Below are positions 11,829 through 32,865 of a DNA stretch of 64,000 nucleotides, in pieces. The translations under genes and the position numbers were made by a program. The notes under the pieces were generated by a model. That model was given only the letters and a program-made list of their open reading frames with translations. It searched no databases and was not told the DNA's origin. The stretch covers positions 434,001 to 498,000 of the forward strand of contig NZ_CP027786.1 in NCBI RefSeq assembly GCF_003795145.1, in the 5' to 3' direction. The stretch's first letter is position 1. Every line of letters starts with the position of its first letter. This DNA is from Tetragenococcus koreensis (GTDB lineage Bacteria > Bacillota > Bacilli > Lactobacillales > Enterococcaceae).

Positions 11829-11935
11829 AATTAAATCACTCAAATTTTAATAGGTTTAAAATATTTTATATGTTATTATTTTTATAACAGTAAAGTTTAT
11901 GACGGTGGCTATCTTTTTGAAAGGTGGTGGTGCTT

Positions 11936-12079
11936 ATGAAAATAGCACTGAAATCTATAGAAAGGAGACGCTCGTTGTCTGCCGCTGAGGCGATAGGGCT
12001 AATGATCAGTTTCGGTTTGTTAACCGCAACAGTGATCTTTGGCATCCTATCCATAGTGAAAAATGACAATAAAAAATAA
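11936..12079 (+). CDS. Small holin-like toxin of a type I toxin-antitoxin locus
   Basis: A 47-codon ORF; the likely product starts at TTG 11975, with AAAGGAG 7 bases upstream, giving 34 residues that begin MSAAEAIGLMISFG. It has one membrane helix and a charged KNDNKK tail, the pattern of putative holin-like toxins (Hol_Tox/Fst-like) of lactobacilli and enterococci. ATG 11936 has its own GGTGG site and would add a basic N-terminus. A convergent promoter and shared terminator lie downstream, so an antisense RNA antitoxin is expected. Function is inferred from family pattern and layout. Confidence 0.7.
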   Translation: MKIALKSIERRRSLSAAEAIGLMISFGLLTATVIFGILSIVKNDNKK

Positions 12080-13268: not shown

Positions 13269-15236
13269 ATGAGTAAAGATAACTACGATGATTTAGCTCG
13301 TGATATCATCGATCATGTCGGTGGCGAGGAAAACGTAGCAGGGCTTCGTCACTGTGTTACCCGTTTACGTTTTAATTTAAAGGATGAAAATAAAGCGGAT
13401 ACGGATTATTTGAAAAATAAAGAAGGTGTTGTCACGGTTATGAAAAGTGCTGGGCAATACCAAGTTGTTATAGGAGAACAAGTAGCTGAAGTATACGAAG
13501 CAATAGTAAACCAAACAAATATTGGCGGAGATGCTTCTGCTAGTGAATCCAGTGATGGCGGAAGTGAAAACGATAACCGAAATGTACTTGATAAGTTTAT
13601 TGATTTCATTTCAGGTGTTTTCCAACCCTTCTTGATGGCTCTGGCTGCCACTGGGATGATCAAAGGACTTGTAGCATTATTAGGAACAGTAGGTGTTGAC
13701 CCAGAAAGTGGTTTATATCAAGTACTGAATTTTGCTGGTGATGGTTTCTTCCAATTCTTACCAGTGATGGTTGCGATTACCGCAGCTCGTAAGCTAAAAA
13801 TGAATGAGTTTACAGCTTTGGCGATTGCGGTTGCTTTCTTACATCCGGAAATCAATAATTTGATGACAGGGGATGTGATGTATACGCTGTTTTCTGGCAC
13901 AGCATTTGAATCTCCGATTTATTCCACATTTATAGGGATTCCAATTATTATGCCACCTAATGGGTATTATTCAGCAATTATTCCGATCCTAGTATCCGTA
14001 TGGTTAGGTTCTGTAGTAGAAAAATGGGTGAAAAATATTATTCCAGGTGTTGTTCGTTCATTCTTAACGCCATTTTTTACCGTTATGATCGTTTTTGTCA
14101 TTTCATTAATCGTGATTGGACCGATTGCTAATTGGGCTTCCACATTAGTCGGACAATTTTTCCTTGTCGTTCAAGGGTTTAGTCCACTGCTATTTGGTGC
14201 TTTATTGGCACTTTCGTGGCAATTATTAGTTATTTTTGGACTGCATTGGGGTATTGTCCCAATTATGTTTATTTTGTTAGCAGAACAAGGCTATGAAACG
14301 ATTGGGCCTGTAATGGTAGCATCAACGTTTGGTGTGTTAGGAGTTATCATTGCGTTACTTATTAAATCCAAATCTAAAAAAGTACGAGACATTGCGTTAC
14401 CAGGTGCGATTTCGCTGGTATTTGGCGTTTCAGAACCAACGATTTATGGTTTAATGCTGCCAATGAAACGTTCCTTCTTATATGCGTTGATCAGTAACGC
14501 AGTAGGTGGTGCCTATATTGGTTCTATGAATGTGGTAGGTTACCGTGCTGGCGGTTTAGGTGTATTTTCAATCTTTAATACGATTAATCCTAACGGCAAT
14601 TTAGATATGAACTTTTGGAATGTAATTATCGGATTTGCTTTGTGTACTGTAGTTGGTTTTGTACTTCAAATGGTATTCCCAGTGCCATCTTTAGAAGGTG
14701 ATGGAAATGAAGGGCAAACTGCAAGCAACAAAAACGATGATAAAGGTTTAGTAAGTAGTGAAGAGTTACAAGAAAGTGCCAAAGAAGACATTATTGCTAG
14801 CCCAATGCAAGGACAATTGGTTCCAATAACTGAAGTAAGCGATGAAGTATTTTCAAGCGAAGCTTTAGGAAAAGGCGTGGCTATAAAACCTGAAGTTGGC
14901 GAAGTAAGAGCTCCAGCAAATGGTGTTATTTCAACTCTATTTCCTACGGGACATGCGGTTGGAATGAAAACCGATGAAGGGACAGAGGTTCTGATTCATA
15001 TCGGATTAGATACTGTTGAACTGGAAGGAAAATATTATGAAATTTTGGTAAAACAAGAGCAACGAGTAAACGCCGGTGATCTACTTATTAAGTTTGATAA
15101 AGCAGGTATCGAAAGTGAAAACTATGATATGATTACGCCGATAGTTATTACCAACTCTGGTGATTTTAAAGCAATCGATGTGACTGAAGAGACAGAGGTT
15201 ACACCAGGCGATTATTTATTAACCGCTATAAAATAA
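13269..15236 (+). CDS. PTS beta-glucoside-type permease IIBCA
   Basis: 655 residues with the domain order IIB-IIC-IIA. IIB has GLRHCVTRLRF with the phospho-Cys at residue 29. IIC (about 110-470) has GLHWGIVPI and GVSEPTIYG, typical of the beta-glucoside subfamily. IIA (about 500-655) has EVLIHIGLDTVELEG with the phospho-His near 577. It imports and phosphorylates an aryl- or di-beta-glucoside. AGGAGAGG precedes the ATG. No phospho-beta-glucosidase or antiterminator gene is adjacent, so it stands alone. A GH1 enzyme at 48.8 kb could process the product. Confidence 0.9.
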   Translation: MSKDNYDDLARDIIDHVGGEENVAGLRHCVTRLRFNLKDENKADTDYLKNKEGVVTVMKSAGQYQVVIGEQVAEVYEAIVNQTNIGGDASASESSDGGSENDNRNVLDKFIDFISGVFQPFLMALAATGMIKGLVALLGTVGVDPESGLYQVLNFAGDGFFQFLPVMVAITAARKLKMNEFTALAIAVAFLHPEINNLMTGDVMYTLFSGTAFESPIYSTFIGIPIIMPPNGYYSAIIPILVSVWLGSVVEKWVKNIIPGVVRSFLTPFFTVMIVFVISLIVIGPIANWASTLVGQFFLVVQGFSPLLFGALLALSWQLLVIFGLHWGIVPIMFILLAEQGYETIGPVMVASTFGVLGVIIALLIKSKSKKVRDIALPGAISLVFGVSEPTIYGLMLPMKRSFLYALISNAVGGAYIGSMNVVGYRAGGLGVFSIFNTINPNGNLDMNFWNVIIGFALCTVVGFVLQMVFPVPSLEGDGNEGQTASNKNDDKGLVSSEELQESAKEDIIASPMQGQLVPITEVSDEVFSSEALGKGVAIKPEVGEVRAPANGVISTLFPTGHAVGMKTDEGTEVLIHIGLDTVELEGKYYEILVKQEQRVNAGDLLIKFDKAGIESENYDMITPIVITNSGDFKAIDVTEETEVTPGDYLLTAIK

Positions 15237-16975: not shown

Positions 16976-18340
16976 ATGCAAAACGAATTAGTCATCAAGA
17001 ACGGTCTGGTTCTTTTAGAAGACGGCGAGGTAAGGACCGATATTGGCGTCAAAGATGGTAAAATCAATATGATCGGTAACAACCTTGAAGGTGAACAAGT
17101 CATTGATGCATCAGGATTAATTGTTAGTCCAGGGATGGTAGACGCACATGTGCACATTACAGATCCCGGCGGCGGTTATCGTGATGAATGGGAAGGCTAT
17201 ATAACGGGGACTGCAGCAAGTGCAAAAGGCGGCGTTACTTCATTTATGGAGATGCCTTTAAATCAAGTACCAGCAACTGTGGACGAAGAAACGCTAAATA
17301 TTAAATATCAAGCAGGAGAAAATAAGCTAAAAGTAGATGTTGCTTCATTTGGCGGATTGGTTCCCTTTAACCTTGAAGGCGGTATTCAAGAATTAGATGC
17401 AGGCGGTGTGGCAGGCTATAAATGCTTTTTAGGTTCTTGCGGCGATCCTTTAATTACAGGAGATTTCCAAAATGTCGATGATTATTCGTTATATGAAGGG
17501 ATGCGACAAATTGCTAAGACTGGCAAAGTGCTAGCGATTCATTCTGAAAATGCGCCAATTACTGACAAACTTGGTGAAATTGCGGTAGCAAATGGGGAAA
17601 CGTCAATGGAAGAATATGTCGCAACTCGCCCTGCGTTTACCGAAGTCGAAGCGATTTGTAAAGCCATTTTAATGGCCAAAGTCACAGGTTGTCGTCTTCA
17701 TATTGTTCATGTCGCTTGTAAAGAAGGGGTCGAAGAAGTCATCAAAGCCCGAGAAGAAGGTGTGGACGTGACTTGTGAAACGTGTGTTCATTACCTTTAC
17801 TTTGCAACAGAAGAACTTAACGCCATTGGTCCAGTGGCAAAATGTTCACCCCCAATTCGTGAACAAAAACAACAAGATGCTTTATGGGAACATGTCCAAG
17901 CAGGAAATATCAGTTTTGTCACTTCAGATCATTCACCTTGTACACCCGATTTGAAAGACACGGAGGATGCTTTTGAAGCTTGGGGAGGCATTGCAGGACT
18001 GCAAAATGATGTAGATATTTTATTTGACGAAGCGGTACAAAAACGAGGGATGCCATTAAAACAATTCGTTCAAATGATCGCTTCTAAACCAGCTGATCTT
18101 TATAACCTGGACCAAAAAGGACGTATCAGCGTGGGTAAAGATGCCGACTTTGTTTTAATCAAACCGAATTCTTCTTATACATTAAAAGCGGAGGATTTAG
18201 AATACAGAAATAAAATCAGCCCTTATATCGGAAGAGAAATTGGAGCACAAGTTTACAAAACAATTTTAAGAGGACAAACGATTTATAGCAAAGGAACAGG
18301 TGTGACAGCAGAATTTCCAGGAGAGTTTATCAAGAAGTAA
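16976..18340 (+). CDS. allB: Allantoinase
   Basis: 454 residues of the cyclic amidohydrolase family. Metal-binding DAHVHITDPGG (HxH), the lysine to be carboxylated in GVAGYKCFLGS, LAIHSENA, HIVHVACKEG and the catalytic aspartate in VTSDHSP are all present. GGYRDEWEGY and SFMEMPLN distinguish allantoinases from dihydroorotases. It opens the allantoin ring to allantoate. No allantoate amidohydrolase or ureidoglycolate gene is in the window, so the rest of the pathway would lie elsewhere. GAGGAGG inside the pucI end serves as ribosome site. Confidence 0.9.
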   Translation: MQNELVIKNGLVLLEDGEVRTDIGVKDGKINMIGNNLEGEQVIDASGLIVSPGMVDAHVHITDPGGGYRDEWEGYITGTAASAKGGVTSFMEMPLNQVPATVDEETLNIKYQAGENKLKVDVASFGGLVPFNLEGGIQELDAGGVAGYKCFLGSCGDPLITGDFQNVDDYSLYEGMRQIAKTGKVLAIHSENAPITDKLGEIAVANGETSMEEYVATRPAFTEVEAICKAILMAKVTGCRLHIVHVACKEGVEEVIKAREEGVDVTCETCVHYLYFATEELNAIGPVAKCSPPIREQKQQDALWEHVQAGNISFVTSDHSPCTPDLKDTEDAFEAWGGIAGLQNDVDILFDEAVQKRGMPLKQFVQMIASKPADLYNLDQKGRISVGKDADFVLIKPNSSYTLKAEDLEYRNKISPYIGREIGAQVYKTILRGQTIYSKGTGVTAEFPGEFIKK

Positions 18341-18360
18341 GCGGTTGTGAAAAAGTATTG

Positions 18361-18406
18361 AAAAACCTGCAAAATAACGAGTGATCGTTCATTTCGCAGG
18401 TTTTTT
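18361..18406 (+). terminator. Terminator of the allantoin operon
   Basis: AAAACCTGC pairs with GCAGGTTTT, with inner AAAAT/ATTT pairing, and ends in six T. The loop and stem closely resemble the terminator at 43893-43943. Confidence 0.85.
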
Positions 18407-18570
18407 GGTAAAAAGAAATACAGAGATAATAATATTTTTTACAGGATTGCTGATCAAGATAATTATTTCAAAAAAGTTGTTGTAGTAACTCGTGGAACTT
18501 ATCATAACAGATTTAGTGGACAGTGTGGTTTTCTTTAAATCATGGAAAGCATACACAGGAGAAAACAAAC

Positions 18571-18599
18571 TAGACAGATACTTATTTTTTTGCTATAGT
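18571..18599 (+). promoter_or_regulatory. Promoter of the P-type ATPase leader
   Basis: TAGACA (18571-18576), a 17-base spacer and the extended -10 TGCTATAGT ending at 18599. Predicted start near 18606, 20 bases before the structured leader. Confidence 0.7.
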
Positions 18600-18625
18600 G
18601 GCTAAGTAAATAAAATAAACAAACA

Positions 18626-18693
18626 GGTTGAGCGTAAGCTTTCAAGACATAACTTCCAAGGGTGAGGAAGGTCTTGTTTGCTTGCGCTTTTTT
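18626..18693 (+). ncRNA. Structured leader RNA with terminator (copy A), candidate riboswitch
   Basis: GGTTGAGC opens the element. An outer stem GCGTAAGC (18632-18639)/GCTTGCGC (18680-18687) is followed by six T, i.e. a terminator. Nested inside are CAAGAC (18643)/GTCTTG (18671) and CTTCC/GGAAG closing the loop AAGGGTGA (18658-18665). The same GGTTGAGC start, TTCAAG word and AAGGG(G)TGA hairpin occur before the V-ATPase operon at 23763. Shared sequence plus a terminator before two ion pumps suggests transcription attenuation by a common signal, Na+ or another cation being the obvious candidate. The class is not identified. Confidence 0.65.
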
Positions 18694-18719
18694 ATGTTTG
18701 ATTATAGTTTTTTGGAGGG

Positions 18720-21491
18720 ATGAAGGAATTGAAATTTTATCAACAATCTAAAGATAAAATCATCGAGCAATTTAATGTCGATATACAAAATGGCCTGACA
18801 GACGAGCAGGTATCACAACAACGGGATGAGTTTGGTGAAAACAAACTCCCTGAGAAAAAAGAAGACCCTTATTGGAAAGTCTTCCTTAAAAACTTTAAAG
18901 AGCCTATTGTTATCGTGTTAATGGGTGCTATAGTTTTATCTTTATTAAGCTCGTTTTATTCGATACAAATCGAAGGCAATATGGAAAGTGGAATGGAATC
19001 CTTATATGAAGCAATCGCTATTTTTGTTTTGATTCTCATTAATGCTTTTCTAGGGTTCTGGCAAGAAATTAGTGCGCGTAAGAGCTTAAATGCACTAAAA
19101 GAAATGAACACTCGCCATACAACTGTACTACGCAATGGTCAATGGGAAACGATCCCCGTAAATGAATTGGTTGTCGGTGATGTGGTAAGTAATACTGTTG
19201 GTGACTTTGTCGAAGCTGATGTTCGTTGGGTAGATACCAATGAGTTACAAGTGATCGAAGCTCACTTAACGGGTGAAGCGGACGCGATTGAAAAAGACAC
19301 AAAAGTCATTAACGAAGACGCGGAATTGGGCGATCAAACCAACATGGGTTTTTCTGGTTCTACTGTTTCTAATGGACAAGGAACGGGTGTCGTTGTAGCC
19401 GTAGGGCAAGACACGGAACTAGGGAATATTGCCCAAATGATCGAATCCGTTGAAACGAAACCTTCGCCATTACAAAATACGGTTAATAAACTAACAAAAA
19501 CGTTGATGTTTGTTGCAGGTGGCGTTGTTGTCTTTACCATTGTCGCTGGAATCATTCAAGCAGGTGAGTTAAGTTTTGATTCCATTGCCTCTGTTTTATC
19601 AACATCCATTGCTTTAGCAGTTGCTTCGATTCCTGATGCGTTACCTGCTGTTTTATCGATTGTTTTAACGATTGGTGCTAGTAAGATGGCAAAAGACAAA
19701 GGGTTGATTAAATCCTTGTCTAGTGTTGAAACTTTAGGGGCTACTTCCTATATTGCTTCTGATAAAACAGGAACGTTAACCAAAAATGAGATGACAGTGG
19801 TTCAGTATCATGCCAATGGTCAAGACTACAAGGTTACTGGGTTAGGTTATAAACCAGAAGGTGAGATTAAAAATAATGGGGATTCTTCTGATTCTTCCGT
19901 TGAAAAATCACGTAATTTTTTACTCGGCGCGGTCTTATGTAACGAATCCGCTATACAAGAAAATAATGGCGAATATCAACCGCTAGGTACGCCTACAGAA
20001 GTAGCTTTAACAGTGTTAGGTAGAAAAGTAGGCATTAGTCGAGAAGAGTTATTAGAAAACAAAGAACTTATTCGAACACTACCTTTTAGTAGTAGTCGTA
20101 AAATGATGAGCGTTGTTGTAAAAGAAGGTGACAAGTACACCTTATATACAAAAGGAGCACCGGACGTCTTAGTTAATCATAGTTATGGTATTTTAAAAAA
20201 TGATCAAGTCGACACTTCTGAACAAGAAAGAACCAACTTTTTAACAACTGTCGATGAATATGCAGAAGGAGCTCTACGCACGTTAGCTGTGGGACAAAAA
20301 GAAATCTCAGAAGACGAAGCAACCAATGGCACAGTGGAAACCTTAGAAGAAGATCTAGTTATCACTGGTGTTGCAGGAATTATTGATCCCGCTCGTGAAG
20401 AAGTAAAAGAATCCGTAAGAATCTTGCATAATGCCCAAGTTGAAGTCGTTATGATTACAGGTGACCATGAGAAAACAGCTAGAGCGATTGCCCAAGAATT
20501 AGGCATTGTCAAAGATAAAAATGCTCCAGTTATTCGAGGCGCTGAAATCGAAGAAATGACAGATGAAGAACTATTTGAAAAGGTGAAAGACACCAATGTT
20601 TATGCTCGGGTTTCTCCAGAACATAAACAAAGAATCGTTAAACAATTGCAAAAGTATGGTCAAATTACCGCGATGACCGGCGATGGCGTAAACGACGCGC
20701 CTGCGTTGCGTATTGCAGATATTGGTATTGCTATGGGAATTACTGGTACCGAAGTAACGAAAGATTCCTCTGATTTAGTATTATTAGACGATAAATTTAC
20801 GACTATTGAAAGAGCTGTAGAAAATGGGCGGACGATTTATGGCAATATTAAAAACTTCATTCGTCATGAAATCACGACCAACGTCGCAGAAGTTTTATCT
20901 ATTCTGATCGGATTATTGTTCTTCACTCAAACTGTGGGGCACATTCCTGCTGCTACTCCAACGTTAACAGCATTAATGGTTTTATGGGTCAATATGATTA
21001 GTGACGCCGTTCCTTCATTTTCTTTAGGCTATGATGTAGCGGAAAAGAATATCATGGACGATGGCCCTCGGGACCCTAATGAATCAATTCTGGCTAATTA
21101 TACTTGGTCACGTGTTTTAATTCGTGGTTTCTTTACGGGGCTTCTCGTTTATGTTGCTTTCCTTTGGGCCGCTCATGAAGGTATGGCCGCCGATCAAGCA
21201 CAAACAGTGGCTTTTCTAACGCTAGTTTATGGACAATTATGGCACGTATTTGATGCACGTAGTTCGAAAACTTTATTTAGAAGAAATCCATTTGAAAATA
21301 AATATTTAGTTGCTGCTGTCTTGTTTGCAGGAATTTCTTCTTTCCTTGTAACGATTATCCCATTCTTTAATTTAGTAATGGGGACAGCGCCATTAGAAGG
21401 TTCTGTTTACCTAATGGTTCTATTTATTCCTGCTTTACCAACACTGATATTATCAGGAATTAAAGAACTATTTGGCATTAAAATTTGGTAA
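18720..21491 (+). CDS. P2-type cation-transporting ATPase (Na+ or Ca2+ pump)
   Basis: 923 residues with the full P-type plan: N-terminal cation-ATPase domain, actuator loop HLTGEADAI (about 183), phosphorylation site SDKTGTLTKNE (Asp near 348), nucleotide domain, hinge AMTGDGVNDAPALR (about 651), and ten membrane segments. Membrane helix 4 reads PDALPAVL, with Asp where SERCA has Glu in PEGLP, and helix 6 has NMISDAVPS. This is the SERCA/PMR-like group that includes bacterial Ca2+ and Na+ pumps. GGAGGG abuts ATG 18720, so TTG 18729 (10 bases after it) may be the true start. The leader shared with the Na+ V-ATPase favours Na+ export, an inference. Confidence 0.88.
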   Translation: MKELKFYQQSKDKIIEQFNVDIQNGLTDEQVSQQRDEFGENKLPEKKEDPYWKVFLKNFKEPIVIVLMGAIVLSLLSSFYSIQIEGNMESGMESLYEAIAIFVLILINAFLGFWQEISARKSLNALKEMNTRHTTVLRNGQWETIPVNELVVGDVVSNTVGDFVEADVRWVDTNELQVIEAHLTGEADAIEKDTKVINEDAELGDQTNMGFSGSTVSNGQGTGVVVAVGQDTELGNIAQMIESVETKPSPLQNTVNKLTKTLMFVAGGVVVFTIVAGIIQAGELSFDSIASVLSTSIALAVASIPDALPAVLSIVLTIGASKMAKDKGLIKSLSSVETLGATSYIASDKTGTLTKNEMTVVQYHANGQDYKVTGLGYKPEGEIKNNGDSSDSSVEKSRNFLLGAVLCNESAIQENNGEYQPLGTPTEVALTVLGRKVGISREELLENKELIRTLPFSSSRKMMSVVVKEGDKYTLYTKGAPDVLVNHSYGILKNDQVDTSEQERTNFLTTVDEYAEGALRTLAVGQKEISEDEATNGTVETLEEDLVITGVAGIIDPAREEVKESVRILHNAQVEVVMITGDHEKTARAIAQELGIVKDKNAPVIRGAEIEEMTDEELFEKVKDTNVYARVSPEHKQRIVKQLQKYGQITAMTGDGVNDAPALRIADIGIAMGITGTEVTKDSSDLVLLDDKFTTIERAVENGRTIYGNIKNFIRHEITTNVAEVLSILIGLLFFTQTVGHIPAATPTLTALMVLWVNMISDAVPSFSLGYDVAEKNIMDDGPRDPNESILANYTWSRVLIRGFFTGLLVYVAFLWAAHEGMAADQAQTVAFLTLVYGQLWHVFDARSSKTLFRRNPFENKYLVAAVLFAGISSFLVTIIPFFNLVMGTAPLEGSVYLMVLFIPALPTLILSGIKELFGIKIW

Positions 21492-21513
21492 CTTATTGAA
21501 TTTAAACTGTATA

Positions 21514-21565
21514 AAAGCAAGGTATTATTTCTAAGTCATTTAATACCTTGCTTTTATTTTTTTAT
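21514..21565 (+). terminator. Terminator of the P-type ATPase gene
   Basis: A 15-bp perfect stem (21514-21528 with 21542-21556) is followed by T-rich sequence. Confidence 0.85.
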
Positions 21566-21647
21566 TCTAAGTTGTAAGTGGTTGCTAAGTTTGGCTTTCT
21601 CAGCTAAATTTCCAGCAAACTGGCTAGATTCTTGTGTAGTTTAGTAG

Positions 21648-21776
21648 GAAAGCCAGTGTCTTCTACTATTAGGTGGTCTTATCATATTTATTGCTATGAA
21701 GTTTGTTTATAACTTAGATGAGGACAAGATGGAAAAAATTCAAGATAAATTAGCAGTGAGAGATTCTGCAAAATAA
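21648..21776 (+). pseudogene. C-terminal remnant of a GPH-family sugar:cation symporter
   Basis: About 42 codons follow an in-frame stop. The end reads GGLIIFIAMKFVYNLDEDKM and then EKIQDKLAVRDSAK, the last membrane segment and cytoplasmic tail (YxLDExK) of glycoside-pentoside-hexuronide symporters. No start or upstream part remains. The stretch 21777-22056 holds no gene I can support. Confidence 0.55.
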
Positions 21777-22056
21777 TCGTAAACATTTATATTTTTACCG
21801 TTGCCAACCAATTGGCTACTAGTGTGAAGGATAAAGTGTTGTAAGTTCCTTCATTTTAGAATGGTTTAGTTTGAAGCTTGAGTAATTTTCAAAATTTAAA
21901 TGAATAGAAAAATGGCTGCGGATTGTTATGATAATAATCATCTTGTAGCCTTTCGTCGAGTGAGGAATGTAAAAATTTTTATTCCAAATATTTTTATGAA
22001 TAAATCGCGATGTTGAAAGTCCTTGTCTTACAAGGATTAACGATTGTAATAAAAAA

Positions 22057-22116
22057 GAAATCGGAAGGTAAAACCCTATGAAATGAGGATTTGGCCTTTC
22101 CGATTTCTATTTTTTT
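22057..22116. terminator. Bidirectional terminator-like hairpin left of the IS
   Basis: GAAATCGGAA (22057-22066) pairs with TTCCGATTTC (22098-22107). T residues follow and A residues precede it. It may belong to the vanished upstream gene or shield the IS from read-through. Confidence 0.6.
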
Positions 22117-23540
22117 AGAATTTCACGGTATAAATGAAAATAGAAAAAAGAATCATAAGAAAAGCCGACAAATCGAGCGATTTCCACTATAATAGTAGTA
22201 ACGACAAAACTAAATAGGAGGCTTTTCTTATGAATTCTGAAACTATTGTACCATACAATATCAACTTATTTGAAGATTTTGATTGCGGACCGCTTCAAGA
22301 GTTTGAAGCTCTATTAAATCAGATCCCTTACCAGCACTTGATCCAGGAATTAGATGACCGACGTGCGAGCGGTCGCGATGATTGGCCGAACGAAGCGATG
22401 TTTCGCTGCTGGATTGCGATGTTTGTCTTCCATCATCAAGGGCCCACGGAGTTAATCAATGAACTTGAGCGGAATCCTTTTTTACGTCATGCTTGTCATC
22501 TTGAACCACGCTACAATCGAAAAAACGGCCACAAAAGTTTAGCTCCTAGTCCTTCAGCTTTCACACGATTTCAAAGGCGACTGATCGATGTTCAAGACCT
22601 GCTCGACGCCCTATTTGCCCATATGACCGAGGAGCTACAAGAAGCGCTCTCCGACCTCGGCGAAAGCTTAGCTTTGGATGGCAAAATTATTGAAGCCTAT
22701 GCCCAAAGACCGCCAAAAAAGAAAAAATGCGAGGGGCGTCGAGATCACGATGCCAATTATACCCAAAAGACTTATACCTCTACGACGAAAGAAGGGAAAA
22801 TCCAAACAAAATCCGCTTGGTTTTATGGTTATCGCGTGCATCTAATCGCCGATGCCAGATATGAGTTGCCCCTTTTATTTCGAGTAACACCCGCGGCGAA
22901 TGGGGAAAAAACGGTGGCTAAGGAAATGGTGGCCCAAATGCCTTCCTGGCTGGCGGAACGTTGCGACCATTTATCCGCAGATAAAGGCTATGACGGAGGA
23001 AAATTACGCGAGATCATTGAAGATCGAGGGATGAAGCCGATCATCGATATCGTGAATCATTGGCAAGGAGAAAGCACCCGACAATATCAAGACACCGACT
23101 TCGTTTATACTTATAAAGGAGAAGTTTATTATGTGAGCGATCGAGGAAAGCTTATCCGAGCGCAATACAAGGGGTATCATGCCGCTTCGGACACCCTTCG
23201 TTATGAAACGCATCCGAAAAATGGGGCGGGGATTCATCGGGTTTCGATTCCACGTGCCGAAGATCCCCGGGTCTTTAACTTGATCGGGCGGGATTCGAAA
23301 AAATTTCAACGTTATTATAACGAGCGCTCCGCCGTGGAACGGGTCAACGGTCGTATCGACCGCGATTATCTCTTTGAAGATCACCGGGTACGGGGCTTAG
23401 CGAAAATGAAATTGCACGTGACCACCACATTTTGCTTGATGTTAGCGAAGAAAAAACGCGCCTTAGCCCAAGAAAAACGACCCGCGGCGTAACTCTCGCC
23501 ATCATAAAAAAACACGGTGTATTTTTACCCGTGTCTTTCG
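22117..23540 (+). mobile_element. IS element with IS1182/IS5-like transposase
   Basis: One intact transposase gene (22230-23492). Candidate imperfect terminal repeats are GAATTTCACGGTATAAAT at the left (22118) and, inverted, GAAAGACACGGGTAAAAA at the right (about 23521-23540). They share about 12 of 18 positions. No clear target duplication was found, so the ends are approximate. The coding part is markedly richer in G+C than its neighbours, a sign of recent arrival. A hairpin at 23512-23534 probably terminates the transposase mRNA. Confidence 0.6.
22230..23492 (+). CDS. Transposase, DDE type, IS1182-like
   Basis: 420 residues. The N-terminal DUF772-like region has NEAMFRCWIAMFVFHHQGPTE. The DDE catalytic domain shows ALDGKIIEAYA (first Asp), LSADKGYDGGKLR (second Asp) and YYNERSAVERVNGRI (Glu). 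The ORF is complete and uninterrupted, so the element may be active. AGGAGG precedes the ATG. Codon use, with many CGG, GCG and GAC-type codons, is unlike the neighbouring genes. Confidence 0.9.
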   Translation: MNSETIVPYNINLFEDFDCGPLQEFEALLNQIPYQHLIQELDDRRASGRDDWPNEAMFRCWIAMFVFHHQGPTELINELERNPFLRHACHLEPRYNRKNGHKSLAPSPSAFTRFQRRLIDVQDLLDALFAHMTEELQEALSDLGESLALDGKIIEAYAQRPPKKKKCEGRRDHDANYTQKTYTSTTKEGKIQTKSAWFYGYRVHLIADARYELPLLFRVTPAANGEKTVAKEMVAQMPSWLAERCDHLSADKGYDGGKLREIIEDRGMKPIIDIVNHWQGESTRQYQDTDFVYTYKGEVYYVSDRGKLIRAQYKGYHAASDTLRYETHPKNGAGIHRVSIPRAEDPRVFNLIGRDSKKFQRYYNERSAVERVNGRIDRDYLFEDHRVRGLAKMKLHVTTTFCLMLAKKKRALAQEKRPAA

Positions 23541-23698
23541 TGCGCTCTTTTTTAAAGAAAGACTGTTCAAGAAAAAAAGAAAACGTTTATTTTTCCTTAT
23601 TAAATGGGAAAAAACGTGGGTTTTCTTCTTTTTATTTCTTTTTTTATCTTTTTTACGAAAAAAATGAAGCAGCGCAAAAGATTCTTTATAAGTAGAGG

Positions 23699-23727
23699 TT
23701 TCCAAACGAGAAATGTTTTGCTATACT
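23699..23727 (+). promoter_or_regulatory. Promoter of the ntp V-ATPase operon
   Basis: TTTCCA (23699-23704), a 17-base spacer and extended -10 TGCTATACT ending at 23727. It resembles the TTTTGCTATAGT promoter core of the P-type ATPase at 18594. Start expected near 23734. Confidence 0.65.
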
Positions 23728-23762
23728 AAAAGAGTAATTAAATCGTGAATAGTATAACTAAT

Positions 23763-23842
23763 GGTTGAGCAAATTGTTCAAGGATAGCGTTCTTCAAGGG
23801 GTGAGAAGAACATTATTTGGATAGCAAGCCTCAACCTTTTTT
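23763..23842 (+). ncRNA. Structured leader RNA with terminator (copy B), candidate riboswitch
   Basis: GGTTGAG (23763-23769) pairs with CTCAACC (23830-23836), and six T follow. Inside, GTTCTTC (23789-23795)/GAAGAAC (23805-23811) closes the loop AAGGGGTGA. The opening GGTTGAGC, the TTCAAG word and the loop match leader A at 18626, though the terminator stems differ in sequence, so the fold appears conserved. It lies 45 bases before ntpF. The known Na+ induction of the E. hirae ntp operon makes Na+ a natural ligand candidate. This is not proven and the class is unassigned. Confidence 0.65.
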
Positions 23843-23887
23843 GTTTATCTTCTAAGAAGAAGATAAAGTTGAAAGTGGGGTGAGAAT

Positions 23888-24197
23888 ATGCAAGAAGCTT
23901 TGGAACGAATCAAACAAGCTGAAGCGAAAAATGAACGTAATGAACAACAAATGTGGGCAGATTTAAAAGAATATGAACAAGAAAAAAATGAGCAATTAAA
24001 AATGCTTGAACGTGAGAAGAAAGAAGAAAGAGATAATATACTCACTGAAATTCAAGAAAAGTATGAAGAACAGCTTCAGCAACAACAATTTTCCTTAGAG
24101 CAAGAAGTTAATACAGAAGATGAGAATTATAAACAATCTTACCAAAAAAATCGGGGGAAAGTTGTGGAACAAATTATCGAGGGAGTGAACCAAAAAA

Positions 24198-24208
<11 letters not shown>
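23888..24208 (+). CDS. ntpF: V-type Na+-ATPase subunit G/H (NtpF), stalk coiled coil
   Basis: 106 residues, almost entirely charged helix rich in E, K and Q with heptad character, as expected for the peripheral-stalk subunit that pairs with NtpE. It opens the nine-gene operon, as in E. hirae. GGGGTGAG lies before ATG 23888. Its stop overlaps the ntpI start by 11 bases. Identification rests on coiled-coil character and operon position. Confidence 0.8.
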
Positions 24209-26635
<2,427 letters not shown>

Positions 26636-26659
26636 TGAGGGTCAAAGGAGGGGAAATCC

Positions 26660-27244
26660 ATGGATGCAATTGAAACGATTATTCATGATATTGATCAACA
26701 ATCAGAAAATGAGCGAATAACTAAGAAAAATGAGCGATTAGAAGAGATAGAGCAAACATTTGAGACGGAAAAACAAAAGATCGAAAAAGCTCATGAAGAA
26801 CAACTAGCTACACAAAAAGACCGTTTAGAGAAAAAATTTCGACAAGAAAAAAATCGTAATACTGTACAAGCACGACAAGCGCGCTTAAAAAGAAAACAAC
26901 AGTACTTAGAACAAATTTTTGAAGATGCTTATCAAGAAATGGCGCAGTGGGATGTGCAAACAACCCGAGAATTTTTGCTGTCTTCTCTTAAGCAAAGTGG
27001 ACTTATCAAAGGAAAAATAATTCCGGGCGGTTTAACCGATGATTCTGTTTATTCTGCTGAATGGATCGAACAAATCAACCACTCAGAAGGGATGGAACTT
27101 TCCTTAGGCGAAAAAAGTTCGAGTTCAGAGCATGGTTTTTTACTTGAAGTTGCAGGAATTCAATACAATTTTTACTATCACGAATTATTGGCTGAAGTAA
27201 AAAAATCAGCTAGTGGTGAAATCATGCAAACCTTATTTACGTAG
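26660..27244 (+). CDS. ntpE: V-type Na+-ATPase subunit E (NtpE)
   Basis: 194 residues. The N-terminal 100 are charged coiled coil (peripheral stalk with NtpF). The C-terminal part folds as the head that binds the catalytic hexamer (GFLLEVAGIQYNFYYHELLAEV). AAAGGAGGGG is before ATG 26660. Position between ntpK and ntpC matches E. hirae. Confidence 0.88.
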   Translation: MDAIETIIHDIDQQSENERITKKNERLEEIEQTFETEKQKIEKAHEEQLATQKDRLEKKFRQEKNRNTVQARQARLKRKQQYLEQIFEDAYQEMAQWDVQTTREFLLSSLKQSGLIKGKIIPGGLTDDSVYSAEWIEQINHSEGMELSLGEKSSSSEHGFLLEVAGIQYNFYYHELLAEVKKSASGEIMQTLFT

Positions 27245-27258
27245 AGGAGGAGGACGCA

Positions 27259-28251
27259 ATGAAGGATTTATATCATACAGTCAATCCCGCGGTGCGCTTG
27301 AAAGAAACTGAGTTACTTACCAAAGAAACGTTTGAACAATTAATCGCAGCGGAATCGTTTGAAAAAATTAGAGAATTGTTGAATCCGACAGTCTATAGTA
27401 AATATTTAACGGATCATTTTCAATTTCATTTTGAAGAAAGTTTGGATGAAGAATTAGATAAAACTTATCAAGAAATGATTGAACTAGTACCTGATCCAAC
27501 AATTGTATGGATTTATACGATGCGTTATACCTTTCATAATTTGAAAGTTTTAACCAAAGCGGAAAAAATGCAGGAAGATTACGATCATCTATTTATGCCT
27601 GATGGTTTCTACTCAATTGAAGAAGTCAAGTCCGCAATTGAAAATGGGGTATCAGGAGTGCTTCCCAAATCAATTATTGAAGCGATTCACGATGTTAACC
27701 AATATTTTGAAGAATCGGCTATTTTACAGGGGATTGATGTCATTTATGACCGCCATTTTTTAACGGAACAGCGTCGTTTAGCAGAGGCATTAAAATACCC
27801 GGAACTATTACAGGAAGTTATTGCCTTTATTGATTTTAATAATATCATTACAATGGCTAGATGTATTTTGCAAAATCGCAGTCAAGCGTTTATGTCTGCT
27901 GTTTTGTCCGATGCAGGTTCAATAAAAAAGGAGACTTTTTTAAACTTTACTGATCAATCAATGGAAGAGTATATAGCCTTTTTAGGAAGAACAGATTATG
28001 GACGTTTGTTAGAGCCAGCTTTGCAAAAGGACAAAATTGATTTTTTACAGTTAGACTTGATCAAAGATAACTATCTGACGTCTTTGTATGAAAGGTCGCA
28101 AACAACCGCTTTTGGCCCGTTACCATTATTAGCATTTTTAAATGCCAAAGATATTGAAATAATGAATTTACGTTTGCTCATTGTAGGAAAACGAAGTGGG
28201 TTTACTAAACAGCAAGTAAGAGAAAGGATGCGTGAAATCAGTGAGTTATAA
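27259..28251 (+). CDS. ntpC: V-type ATPase subunit d/C (NtpC)
   Basis: 330 residues, helical. The start ([17 protein letters not shown]) and the [13 protein letters not shown] and NIITMARC segments are typical of the subunit that links the central shaft to the c ring. AGGAGGAGG precedes the ATG. It overlaps ntpG. Confidence 0.9.
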
Positions 28252-28552
28252 AATTGGGGTTATCGGTGATAAAGAATCGGTGCTTCCCTTCAAGTTATTC
28301 GGTTTTACGGTCAAATATGGCAATAATTTAACAGAAATTAACCAAACCTTTGATGAAATGGTAGAAAAAGGTTATGGCGTAATTTATATTACAGAATCAT
28401 GTGCGCAACAGATTGACAAAAAAATTGAAAAAATTAAAGGACAACTTTCGCCAGCGGTCGTTTTGATCCCTGACCACGATGGTTCAAGAGGAATCGGTCT
28501 TGAATCGGTGCAAGAAAATATGAAAAAAGCAGTCGGACAAAATATTTTATAG
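28241..28552 (+). CDS. ntpG: V-type ATPase subunit F (NtpG)
   Basis: 103 residues starting [14 protein letters not shown] at GTG 28241, which agrees with the family start. An in-frame GTG at 28232 would add three residues. Visible marks are [11 protein letters not shown], the [14 protein letters not shown] turn and the C-terminal VGQNIL. It binds NtpD in the central shaft. It overlaps the ntpC stop. Confidence 0.88.
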
Positions 28553-28568
28553 GAGAGGGGATGATCAA

Positions 28569-30350
28569 GTGAAAGTTGGCAAAATTACAAGAATTTCTGG
28601 ACCATTAGTGATGGCTGACAATATGGAAGAAGCCAGTATACAAGATATTTGTTATGTAGGCGATTTGGGCGTTGTAGGAGAAATCATTGAAATGAGAGGC
28701 GATGTTGCTTCTATTCAAGTGTATGAAGAAACTTCCGGTATTGGCCCTGGTGAACCGGTCCAAACAACGGGGGAAGCACTTTCAGTTGAATTGGCGCCGG
28801 GTATCGTTTCGCAAATGTTTGATGGGATTCAACGCCCCTTAGACGTTTTCGCTGAAAAAACAGACAGTACATTTTTAAGTCGTGGCGTAAAAATTCCTGC
28901 ATTGGATCATGAGAAGAAATGGCAATTTCAACCCAATGTTGTCGTTGGCGATGATGTGATTGAAGGAGACATTTTAGGAAATGTACAGGAAACAAAACTC
29001 ATTATGCATAAAATCATGGTACCAGTGGGGATAAATGGTAAAGTAAAAGCGATTTATGATGGTGAATTTACGATTGATGAAGTTATTTGTGTGATTGAAA
29101 CAGTAAATGGGGATAAAGAATTAACCATGCTACAAAAATGGCCGGTTCGTCGTTTCCGCCCAGTGAAAGAAAAACTCAATCCTGATGTACCTATGTCTAC
29201 TGGACAGCGGGTTATTGACACCTTCTTTCCTGTAACCAAAGGGGGAGCTGCAGCAGTTCCCGGCCCGTTTGGAGCGGGTAAAACGATCGTACAGCATCAA
29301 ATTGCCAAATGGGCAGATGTCGATTTGGTCGTTTATGTTGGTTGTGGTGAACGGGGCAATGAAATGACTGATGTCATGAATGAATTCCCTGAATTGACCG
29401 ACCCAGAAACTGGGGAATCCTTGATGAAGCGGACCATTTTAATTGCTAACACTTCGAATATGCCGGTATCTGCCAGAGAAGCTTCGATTTATACGGGAAT
29501 TACCATCGCTGAATATTTTAGAGATATGGGCTATTCGGTTGCCATCATGGCAGATTCTACCTCGCGTTGGGCAGAAGCTCTACGTGAAATGTCGGGTCGG
29601 CTTGAAGAAATGCCCGGTGATGAAGGCTATCCAGCTTATTTAGGTAGTCGCTTAGCGGAATATTATGAACGCGCGGGTAATGTGGTGGCTTTAGGTGCAG
29701 AGAAACGGCAAGGAAGCATTACCGCAATTAGTGCAGTTTCGCCATCTGGTGGTGACATGTCAGAGCCTGTTACCCAAAATACACTACGTGTGGTTAAAGT
29801 ATTCTGGGGCTTAGATTCGACGTTATCACGACAACGGCACTTTCCTGCTGTTGATTGGTTACAAAGTTACTCGCTTTACTCAGATGATGTGAATGAGTAT
29901 TTTGATCAAAAACTGGGTGCTGATTGGTCTGGACTAGTCGGTGAAAGCATGCGAGTATTGCAAAAAGAATCGGATTTAAATGAGATCGTACGTTTAGTCG
30001 GTGTTGATTCTCTTTCGGAAAAGGACCAATTTGTTCTAGAGATTGCTAAAGAACTCAGAGAGGACTATCTGCAACAAAATGCGTTTGACGATGTCGATAC
30101 CTTTTCTTCAATTGACAAGCAATATTACATGTTGAATACAATTATTTCTTTCTATAATGAAGGAATAAATGCCCTAGACTTAGGCGGTTATTTATCTGAA
30201 CTTTTAAGTGGGACTTCTGCCTTAAGAGATAAAATTGCCCGTATGAAAAATGTTCCTGAAGATAACCTACAACAAATTAGTGATTTACAAAGTGAAATAA
30301 AAGAAACGATCCGAGATACCCTGCAAAAAGGAGACATGGCGAATGATTAA
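28569..30350 (+). CDS. ntpA: V-type Na+-ATPase catalytic subunit A (NtpA)
   Basis: 593 residues, the same length as in E. hirae. Walker [12 protein letters not shown], the GCGERGNEM catalytic glutamate segment and [31 protein letters not shown] are present. It starts at GTG 28569 with GGAGAGGGG 8 bases upstream. It hydrolyses ATP at interfaces with NtpB. The stop overlaps the ntpB start by 8 bases. Confidence 0.96.
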
Positions 30351-31719
30351 AGAATATAAAACAATCACTGAAGTAGTCGGTCCTTTAATGATGGTAGAAA
30401 ATGTTGAAGGGGTAAAATCCGAAGAACTGATTGAAGTGCGCATGCAAAATGGTGAAACGCGCCAGGGACAAGTCTTAGAAATCGAAGAAGATAAAGCCTT
30501 AATTCAAATTTTTGAAGGAACTTCTGGGGTCAATATGAAAGAATCGGTAGTCCGTTTTCTAGGCCATCCCTTGGAATTTGGCGTATCTGAGGATATTCTA
30601 GGGCGTGAATTTGATGGCTTAGGTCGTCCTAAAGATGGCGGGGCAGAAATCTTACCCGAAAAAACACTTGATATTAACGGAGAAGCGATCAATCCTTACT
30701 CACGTGATTATCCTGACGAATTTATTCAAACGGGAATTTCGACTATTGACCACTTGAACACCTTAGTACGAGGCCAAAAATTGCCGGTTTTTTCTGCTTC
30801 TGGTTTACCTCACAAAGAATTGGCGGCTCAAATTGCGCGTCAAGCAACTGTTTTAAATTCAGATGATGAGTTTGCTGTGGTGTTTGCCGGTATTGGGATT
30901 ACCTTTGAAGAAGCGGAGTTTTTTATGCAAGACTTTCGTGACACAGGGGCGATTGATCATTCCGTTGTCTTCATGAATTTAGCGAGTGATCCTGCCATTG
31001 AACGAATTGCGACTCCGAAAGTAGCCTTGACTGCTGCCGAATATTTAGCCTATGAAAAAGGGATGCACGTATTAGTCATTATGACAGATATGACTAACTA
31101 CTGTGAAGCTTTACGTGAAATATCTGCTTCGCGTCGTGAAGTTCCTGGACGTCGTGGTTATCCAGGCTACCTATATACCAATTTAGCCACTTTGTATGAA
31201 AGAGCGGGAAGAATCAAAGGCGCTAGTGGTTCGGTAACGCAGATCCCGATACTAACGATGCCAGAAGAAGATATCACCCATCCAATTCCTGACTTGACAG
31301 GCTATATTACGGAAGGACAAATTATTCTCTCACGTGATTTATATAAAAATGGGATCCAACCACCAATTGATGTCCTGCCTTCGTTATCCCGTCTAAAAGA
31401 TAAAGGGACCGGAGAAGGCAAGACAAGGCGAGACCATGCAGCAACTATGAACCAATTATTTACTGCTTATGCACAAGGAAAGCAAGCTAAAGAGCTAGCC
31501 GTCGTTTTAGGTGAAGATGCTTTATCTGAATCAGATAAAATTTACTCTAAATTTGCAGATGAATTCGAGGACAAGTATGTAAACCAAGGTTTTAAAACGA
31601 ACCGAACGATTGAAGAATCGTTAGATTTAGGTTGGAAATTACTGGATATGCTTCCTCGAAATGAATTAAAACGAATCAAAGACGACATGCTCGATGAATT
31701 TCTTCCAGAAAAGGAGTAG
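30343..31719 (+). CDS. ntpB: V-type Na+-ATPase subunit B (NtpB)
   Basis: 458 residues, as in E. hirae. The region equivalent to Walker A reads [17 protein letters not shown], lacking the P-loop lysine as usual for B subunits. [32 protein letters not shown] is seen in pieces typical of the family, including the arginine finger area. It forms the hexamer with NtpA. AAAAGGAG in ntpA precedes the ATG. Confidence 0.96.
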
Positions 31720-31725
31720 GTTGCT

Positions 31726-32358
31726 ATGGCAAAATTAGATGTTCAAGCCACTCGGATGGAAATGTCTCATCTTTCTGATCAATTATCAACGGCCAAAAGA
31801 GGCCATAAGCTGTTAAAAGATAAGCAAGATGAATTGATGCGGCAGTTTATTACATTGATTCGTAAAAATAATGAATTACGCAAAGAAGTAGAAGAGAAAA
31901 TGGCACGTGCTATGAAAGCTTTTCGTTTAGCCAATGCATCTTTGAATGAAAATTTTATCGAAGAAATGTTCATTTTACCAGCAGCAAATGTCACCTTAGA
32001 TATGGCAAAAAAAAATATTATGAGTGTGTCTGTGCCGATTATGAACTTTCAATATGATGAAGATTTCTTAGAAGCGCCCATTGAGTATGGTTTTTTAAAT
32101 TCCAACGCTCCATTAGATAAATCGATTGATGGGTTTACAGATGTTTTACCGCAGTTGTTGGAACTAACTGAAATTGAAAAAACTTGTCAGCTCCTTTCCG
32201 ATGAAATTGAAAAAACTCGGAGACGGGTCAACGCACTGGAATATATGACAATTCCTGAATTGGAAGAAACGATTTATTATATTCAGATGAAGTTAGAAGA
32301 AGATGAACGCGCAGGTGTCACAAGAATGATCAAAGTAAAAAATATGCGGCAGAATTAA
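31726..32358 (+). CDS. ntpD: V-type ATPase subunit D (NtpD), central shaft
   Basis: 210 residues, as in E. hirae. Long N- and C-terminal helices ([18 protein letters not shown]; then [20 protein letters not shown]) form the rotating shaft. It starts 6 bases after ntpB. It is the last ATPase gene here; E. hirae continues with ntpH and ntpJ, which are absent apart from a short NtpJ-like remnant at 32535. Confidence 0.93.
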
Positions 32359-32466
32359 TGATCTTTAGCAGAAATGAGACAAAAAATAGGTCGTAAAGAA
32401 AAGAGAAGTTTATATAAAGTAAAATAAGGTAAAAAAAGACCTTTGGTGGATTTCAATCAAATGATT

Positions 32467-32530
32467 CCTATAAAATAGACATTGGAAAAATCTCTTAGAG
32501 AGGTTCTTTGAACTATTTTATAGGGATGTT
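32467..32530 (+). terminator. Long stem-loop with T run after ntpD
   Basis: CCTATAAAATAG (32467-32478) pairs perfectly with CTATTTTATAGG (32513-32524), then GATGTTTTTT. A smaller CTCTTAGAGAG fold lies in the loop. It can end the ntp operon or attenuate the small ORF that follows 4 bases later. Confidence 0.7.
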
Positions 32531-32534
32531 TTTT

Positions 32535-32636
32535 ATGACAATAGAAACAGAAAAAGTTCGTTTTGCTTCATTTCAATTCTCTTCAGTAAATAAACAGATT
32601 ATCGGTTTTGGATTGTTTGCTATATTTTACCGTTAA
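32535..32636 (+). pseudogene. Short NtpJ/KtrB-like remnant
   Basis: A 33-codon ORF directly behind the stem-loop. FSSVNKQIIGFGLFAIF resembles the first membrane segment of Ktr/NtpJ K+ transporters (FSxVQ....GF pattern), and the position is where E. hirae has ntpJ. It stops after that segment. It could also be an unrelated small membrane peptide. From 32637 to 32865 there is only the leader of the next gene; a cre-like TGTAAGCGCTAATA lies at 32739-32752. Confidence 0.4.
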
Positions 32637-32865
32637 AAAGGTTAGAATATTTAATAAACTGGAATTGCTAATAAATTCTTTATCACAAATTTAACTAATT
32701 GTATTGACTAATTAGTTAAATTGCTATAGGTTGAAATTGTAAGCGCTAATAATATTAGAGGCTCCGCGTTATTTATTAAAATAAGTTGTGTAAGCAATGT
32801 CTTGTGATTTATCAAACAAATTTATAATTGTTTTAGTATTTTTCAACAAAATGGAAGGAAACTAT

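Follow-up and report, generated by a model that had tools for sequence, protein, structure and literature searches.

The Na+-I (DUF1646) riboswitch class (RF03071) precedes the genes of V-type ATPases in enterococci and clostridia and the 'mgtA' gene of Lactococcus (White et al. 2022, PMC9337991). For class members other than the ones discussed below, that study demonstrated that Na+ is bound and turns the switch ON, with a KD of about 2.2 mM for C. acetobutylicum 66 kefB and of about 15 mM for L. garvieae 53 mgtA, and the kefB member, whose read-through is Na+-dependent, switches on with Na+. The Na+-II riboswitch, a variant nhaA-I motif named in the same paper, is likewise an alkali-cation sensor for ion transporter genes. 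Expression of the E. faecalis ntp operon (EF1492-1500) shows a mean 6-fold rise at 30-60 min in 6.5% NaCl (PMC3995695). The available part of PMC7724050 makes no mention of DUF1646, EF1492, V-type, or ntp, the word antiterminator is absent from White et al. (PMC9337991), and, judging by titles and the openings of abstracts, none of the papers retrieved on Tetragenococcus and riboswitches concerns the switch of the leaders described here.

The window, i.e., the whole stretch of 64,000 nucleotides of Tetragenococcus koreensis DNA that was analysed, contains two leader RNAs on the forward strand, of which leader 1 (18626-18693) precedes a P-type ATPase gene and leader 2 (23763-23842) precedes an ntp V-ATPase operon. 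Tetragenococcus is a salt-loving lactic acid bacterium. According to our analysis, both leaders are very probably Na+-I (DUF1646) riboswitches acting as transcriptional ON switches, where Na+ binding and switching of the two RNAs are deduced from their class. They resemble the class in having P1 and P2, the conserved P1 base and P2 loop, a terminator that excludes the aptamer, and ion transport genes downstream (PMC9337991), and leader 2 matches the enterococcal V-ATPase member (EF1492 of E. faecalis; PMC9337991) in both class and kind of operon.

Both leaders open with GGTTGAGC, carry TTCAAG, and display the hairpin loop, AAGGGTGA at 18658-18665 in leader 1 and AAGGGGTGA at 23796-23804 in leader 2, as the first-pass annotation had reported; the nucleotides conserved in the class, namely GGTTG at the P1 base, TTCAAG, and the P2 loop AAGGG(G)TGA, are thus held by both. 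The leader 1 aptamer spans 18626-18670 (P1, 18628-18645; P2, 18653-18670) and scores 43.8 bits with the RF03071 covariance model, above the cut-off of 40.5, with a genome-wide E-value of 9.3e-8. The leader 2 aptamer spans 23763-23811 (model match, 23763-23810; P2, 23789-23811) and scores 32.1 bits, under that cut-off, with a genome-wide E-value of 8.7e-5; a search of 5.6 kb against all Rfam families returned RF03071 for it at an E-value of 7.5e-4. One pair in each match is flagged as nonstandard. Chance resemblance of the leaders was considered and is rejected on the genome-wide E-values. Between 18400 and 24000, no Rfam family except RF03071 was reported at an E-value of ≤1, and the genome yielded no third RF03071 match at ≤0.001. 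Neither the Na+-II riboswitch nor Li+ riboswitches, the latter reportedly alkali-cation sensors governing ion transporter genes, were thus reported in this interval from Rfam 15, a release which may lack their models. The first-pass annotation had proposed that both pumps are under attenuation control by a single RNA sensor, with Na+ as the leading ligand and DUF1646/Na+-I as a class to compare. The covariance search, which returned this class and not an unrelated element, and the literature support that proposal, whose answer is already known: since the class is in Rfam, the leaders are not a new sensor.

The two promoters are of a similar extended -10 type, as previously noted, with TGC ahead of the second hexamer in both. 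The promoter of leader 1 (18571-18599, forward strand) consists of TAGACA, a 17-nt spacer with TGC at its end, and TATAGT, and a similar site was recognized by eye upstream of six of seven P-type leaders of other Tetragenococcus genomes. The promoter of leader 2 (23699-23727, forward strand) consists of TTTCCA, a 17-nt spacer likewise ending in TGC, and TATACT; its sequence TGCTATACT recurs in L178 and L186, and a similar site was seen by eye upstream of the ntp leaders of both relatives inspected. Promoter-like sites in the region number 21 versus 15.3 in shuffled sequences (standard deviation, 4.2), which is not clearly higher.

Folding of both leaders bears out the earlier observation that the terminator stem is built from the element's own outer arms. 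In leader 1, nt 5 to 14 (18630-18639), which are taken from the P1 hairpin, are predicted to pair with nt 55 to 64 (18680-18689), and the T run occupies nt 63 to 68 (18688-18693). In leader 2, the 5' arm comprises nt 1 to 7 (23763-23769), with the conserved GGUUG within it, and pairs in the predicted fold with nt 68 to 74 (23830-23836), followed by the T run at nt 75 to 80 (23837-23842). In both folds, the terminator and P1 are mutually exclusive. A simple terminator scan, restricted to loops of 3 to 8 bases, found four sites versus 4.7 in shuffled sequences, picked up P2 of leader 1, and listed neither of the two long leader terminators.

These folds suggest a mechanism in which P1 and P2 would form in the nascent RNA and create a Na+ site from the P1 base together with the P2 loop. 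At high Na+, the folded aptamer would keep P1, no terminator would form, and transcription would read through into the pump genes; at low Na+, the downstream strand would displace P1 and form the terminator, with P2 remaining folded in the terminated form. Invasion would start with CAAGAC/GUCUUG in leader 1 before extending to nt 5 to 14 with nt 55 to 64, and would involve nt 1 to 7 with nt 68 to 74 in leader 2. The order of these steps is a model; minimum-energy folds are blind to kinetics. The published kefB terminator is described as forming only at the cost of P2 (PMC9337991), whereas in the folds of leaders 1 and 2 it consumes P1 and retains P2, so that the switching step is proposed here by analogy. 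The pump genes are most likely read only when intracellular Na+ is high.

Covariation among homologs was found for P2. Of 93 distinct leaders, 85 were scored at five pairs each (the eight with other loops being left out); all 425 cells were paired, an outcome obtained in 0 of 1,000 shuffles, and four of the five pairs showed changes on both sides. The MAFFT alignment A1, which gave 48 of the 88 distinct aptamers, placed the arms of P-type and V-type leaders in differing registers, and P2 pairs were therefore counted by script outward from the loop. Script counts for upper P1 (e.g., 19 CC cells) were not used, since the register is wrong where UUU precedes CAAG. It had further been claimed that pairing rather than sequence is kept in the terminator, and own arms indeed pair better than swapped ones: among leaders selected for such a stem, and with relatedness uncorrected, 16 of 2,000 swaps were as stable as the own arms for P-type leaders, and none of 2,000 for P-type plus other leaders, for V-type leaders, or for all together.

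In the family survey, 102 of 105 genomes contain an RF03071 match. The 113 leaders lie before V-ATPase genes (92), P-type ATPases (14), and other genes (7), six of the last being cation transporters. Within the genus, the switch stands ahead of a close orthologue of the P-type ATPase in all eight genomes having one and ahead of a close ntp operon in three of three, while a ninth Tetragenococcus genome, G102, has neither the P-type orthologue nor an RF03071 match. In the genome studied here, the surroundings of the second V-ATPase and of three other P-type ATPases gave no RF03071 match at an E-value of ≤0.1. Compared with the direct terminator of the Tetragenococcus leaders, 36 of the 92 family V-ATPase leaders have a separate downstream terminator that starts outside the aptamer and look like a relay type; four of the 92 have no terminator above the threshold, and the direct platform is thus not general.

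The P-type ATPase (18720-21491, forward strand; 923 amino acids) is probably a Na+ exporter, a cargo we infer. Its nearest solved relatives are the Ca2+ pumps lmo0841, SPCA, and SERCA, its NCBIfam scores exceed only the general P-type cut-off and stay below all specific ones, and it carries the motifs IPDALPA, NVAEV, and GQLWHV. Among P-type ATPases, the switch pattern occurred only where the ion-site motif is altered (31 of 60 vs 0 of 19). We tentatively propose, at somewhat less than even odds, that the Na+ switch marks a subgroup of P-type ATPases of lactic acid bacteria which export Na+ and not Ca2+ or Mg2+ (Asp for Glu in M4, IPDALP; Gln in M8, GQLWHV), and that together with ntp it makes up a two-pump Na+ regulon of Tetragenococcus, whose switches, because their terminators consume different parts of P1, possibly have different Na+ thresholds.

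Three other explanations deserve weighing. Leader 1 might work while leader 2 has drifted into a constitutive or weak attenuator, ntp being controlled mainly by its promoter. The subthreshold score of leader 2 and the insertion sequence lying 14 bp upstream of its -35 hexamer fit such drift, which we nevertheless consider improbable: the P1 base, TTCAAG, and the letters of the P2 loop are all preserved, promoter and leader are retained in two relatives, and G-U changes in these relatives leave the pairing of the terminator arms in place.

A class membership in shape only, with the ligand changed to Li+, Ca2+, or another cation, is compatible with the remark of White et al. that altered specificity of some members may occur (PMC9337991) and with the kinship of the P-type ATPase to Ca2+ pumps. 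It is nonetheless very improbable given the intact conserved nucleotides, the resemblance of the ntp rotor to the solved Na+ V-ATPase, and the Na+/H+ exchangers among the downstream genes of the family. Slightly less probable still is the reverse direction, with Na+ halting transcription, for which no supporting evidence emerged; folding alone does not fix the direction, but P1 and the terminator exclude each other, the tested kefB member turns on (PMC9337991), and NaCl raises E. faecalis ntp (PMC3995695). With Na+-responsive ON switching as the preferred reading, two pumps of a salt-loving bacterium are placed in one Na+-sensing regulon, the ntp V-ATPase gains a direct mechanism for its possible induction by Na+, and there is a handle on whether Ca2+-pump-like P-type ATPases of lactic acid bacteria transport Na+. 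Class, ligand, and V-ATPase link being already published, the contribution concerns the class members, the expression platform, and the annotation of genes; new here are the P1-consuming terminator, the fit of own arms, the relay-like V-ATPase leaders, and the link to altered-motif P-type ATPases.

The ntp operon (23888-32358, forward strand) comprises F, I, K, E, C, G, A, B, and D. K, A, and D exceed their NCBIfam cut-offs, I has a strong but sub-cut-off match, and F has none; the letters F, E, C, G, and B were assigned on the assumption of the E. hirae gene order. Aligned to the solved E. hirae Na+ rotor (2bl2), NtpK retains the Thr, Gln, Gln, and Glu positions which we take to be the Na+ ligands. 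The two units are separated by an insertion sequence (21996-23684, forward strand; transposase, 22230-23492), whose transposase has a sub-cut-off best NCBIfam match to an IS1182 transposase. The genome holds eight copies, the other seven being 99% identical. Disruption of the ntp promoter by this element was dismissed, since it ends at 23684, ahead of the -35 hexamer. An ancient common tandem of the two switches was likewise rejected: in the two other, draft Tetragenococcus genomes with both switches (G099 and G103), these lie on separate contigs whose lengths imply a distance of more than 10 kb as a minimum, so that the side-by-side layout is not a conserved tandem. In G103 (L218), ntp directly follows allB.

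According to our covariance model search, both leaders belong to the Na+-I riboswitch class (DUF1646 motif, RF03071). The leader preceding the P-type ATPase gene (leader 1, 18626-18693) matches the Na+ riboswitch aptamer at 18626-18670 on the forward strand with 43.8 bits, above the Rfam cut-off of 40.5, and the leader preceding the ntp V-ATPase operon (leader 2, 23763-23842) matches at 23763-23810 on the same strand with 32.1 bits, under that cut-off and detected at a looser threshold. These are the only RF03071 matches at E ≤ 0.001 in the 2.73-Mb genome (E values of 9.3e-8 and 8.7e-5), and no other Rfam family was found at 18400-24000 at E ≤ 1. The first-pass annotation, which had suggested such a search, described twin leaders with a common hairpin and terminators built from their own outer arms, a description borne out by the sequence; its interpretation that one RNA sensor serves both pumps, with Na+-I/DUF1646 as a class to compare, is judged right since RF03071 matches both. 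The class was previously known, and the case is an ordinary, well-supported one. The finding is already known in kind because White et al. (2022, PMC9337991) report that the class acts as an ON switch, binds Na+ (KD of about 2.2 mM for the kefB member and, for L. garvieae mgtA, about 15 mM) and rejects other cations, and state that the switch is found with V-type ATPase genes in enterococci and clostridia. At 6.5% NaCl, E. faecalis EF1492-1500 is reported to be up 6-fold on average (PMC3995695). Our analysis adds members, an expression platform that consumes P1 and, as a testable guess, a pump subgroup.

On folding, the terminator of leader 1 joins nt 5-14 to nt 55-64 and encloses CAAGAC/GUCUUG and P2 (-29.1 kcal/mol), and that of leader 2 joins nt 1-7 to nt 68-74 (-25.0 kcal/mol). 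In minimum-energy folds of shorter transcripts, leader 1 holds P1 and P2 at nt 44-48, with lower P1 displaced by nt 52, and leader 2 holds both at nt 48-64, with P2 extended from nt 56. The folds of full and shorter transcripts therefore indicate that terminator and P1 are mutually exclusive and that P2 is retained, whereas the kefB terminator, as presented by White et al. (PMC9337991), forms at the expense of P2. Both promoters carry a TG preceding the second hexamer (TAGACA-17-TATAGT for leader 1 and TTTCCA-17-TATACT for leader 2), and similar sites were recognized by eye upstream in relatives for six of seven P-type leaders and two of two ntp leaders.

Within the same family, this genome included, RF03071 matched at E ≤ 0.001 in 102 of 105 genomes and above the cut-off in 82 of them, in a search whose stricter filters lost weak matches. 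The survey set comprised 113 leaders, namely, 111 fetched places and the two in the window; according to tblastn of the window proteins within 700 nt, they precede V-ATPase genes (92), P-type ATPases (14), or different genes (7), the last being, by Pfam, four Na+/H+ exchangers, one TrkH, one Na+/Ca2+ exchanger, and one ABC permease. The leader of the permease case (L189), which has an altered P2 loop and lies 375 nt from the gene, may be a relic, perhaps of a lost pump gene. One genome (G059) has four matches (L099, L110, L175, and L199), preceding two P-type ATPases, one V-ATPase, and one Na+/H+ exchanger.

Across the family leaders, P2 covaries. The first 56 nt distinguish 93 leaders, of which the 85 with the loop AAGGG(G)(T/C)GA showed standard pairs in 425/425 cells of the five loop-proximal P2 pairs, a count matched by 0/1,000 shuffles (mean, 380); pairs 2 to 5 changed on both sides, and pair 1 was invariant. 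A terminator beginning in P1 is found in 72 of the 113 leaders (V-ATPase, 52/92; P-type, 14/14; other, 6/7). Among leaders selected for such a stem, and by a statistic that ignores relatedness, 5' arms paired with their own 3' arms had a lower mean duplex energy than those paired with swapped ones: -13.85 versus -12.13 for P-type leaders (n = 11 distinct; 16/2,000 swaps equally stable), -14.17 versus -10.87 for P-type plus other (n = 17; 0/2,000), -13.01 versus -11.10 for V-ATPase (n = 37; 0/2,000), and -13.38 versus -10.75 for all (n = 54; 0/2,000).

A separate hairpin terminator lies further downstream in 36 of the 92 V-ATPase leaders (within L091-L201, e.g., L092, L110, and L195), and four of the 92 have no terminator above threshold. 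The 5' arm of the separate terminator often resembles the P1 strand (ACTTTCAA or ACTTCAA). In 34 distinct leaders of this type (33 V-ATPase and one exchanger), we tested the stretch lying between P2 and the terminator for its ability to pair with the P1 region and with the terminator 5' arm; the two best pairings share at least 6 nt in 34/34, an overlap easily reached in short segments, and p < 0.05 against mononucleotide shuffles was obtained for the terminator arm in 27, the aptamer in 21, and both in 17. These leaders are compatible with a possible relay antiterminator, in which P1 held by Na+ would free the middle segment, which would in turn block the terminator. We did not find such a relay described in the sections of White et al. 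consulted (PMC9337991).

Eight of nine Tetragenococcus genomes encode a close P-type ATPase orthologue (81-100% identity), with the switch in front in 8/8; the remaining genome, G102, lacks both. Three of the nine carry the close ntp operon (subunit I 86-100% identical), with the switch in 3/3. Genome G097 contains broken fragments, with stops, of a subunit I gene related to that of the ntp operon (G097:C1:275367-275918; 52-62% identical), and the family RF03071 search gave no match at this place. All nine genomes also contain a second V-ATPase, 33-34% identical in subunit I; in this genome its rotor subunit is 59% identical to the NtpK of the window, and no RF03071 match at E ≤ 0.1 surrounds it or three other P-type ATPases. 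This distribution, together with the unmatched paralogues, therefore indicates that the switch tracks particular pumps.

The P-type ATPase (18720-21491, 923 aa) has its closest named relatives in a Tetragenococcus MAG (93%) and in T. halophilus, T. solitarius, and T. muriaticus (81-83%), which places the window in this genus. The ATPase falls under every specific NCBIfam cut-off, and its nearest solved structures are the Ca2+ pumps lmo0841, SPCA, and SERCA. Compared to lmo0841, it has Glu replaced by Asp in M4, Ala by Glu in M5, and Arg by Gln in M8, and it retains SERCA's Asn and Glu in M5 and Asn and Asp in M6. Among 81 sequences (78 P-type ATPase loci, with T. halophilus in three records and one record split into two loci, and three paralogues of this genome), the M4 IPD is present in 60 and absent in 19, and the stretch is missing in 2. 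By a letter pattern rather than a covariance model, the switch was detected upstream of 31/60 loci with IPD versus 0/19 without IPD; one of the 60 (L071) comes without upstream DNA. The pattern is absent in the other 29/60, including all 22 IPDAMP and IPDSMP forms, and the IPD motif is therefore wider than the switch; the 31 loci also tend toward closer kinship with the query. The subgroup (window 18720-21491; L013-L090) combines the M4 IPD with an M8 motif that is mostly GQLWHV. We infer that the IPD- and switch-bearing P-type pumps may export Na+. White et al. (PMC9337991) consider that pumps annotated as MgtA or KefB may transport Na+.

The ntp operon seems to stop at subunit D. No ORF of at least 80 aa is listed at 32358-32797, before the AraC-like gene at 32797, and therefore ntpH and ntpJ, genes known from E. 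hirae, do not directly follow subunit D. An insertion sequence at 21996-23684, one of eight copies in the genome, ends 14 bp upstream of the ntp -35. Together with the P-type ATPase unit, it separates allB from ntp (window 16976-23888), and in a relative's genome (G103, L218) ntp directly follows allB. Elsewhere in the window, Rfam identifies a match to rli28, an sRNA of Listeria (11864-12048; 76.8 bits), and a downstream gene at 13269 is, by eye, PTS transporter-like.
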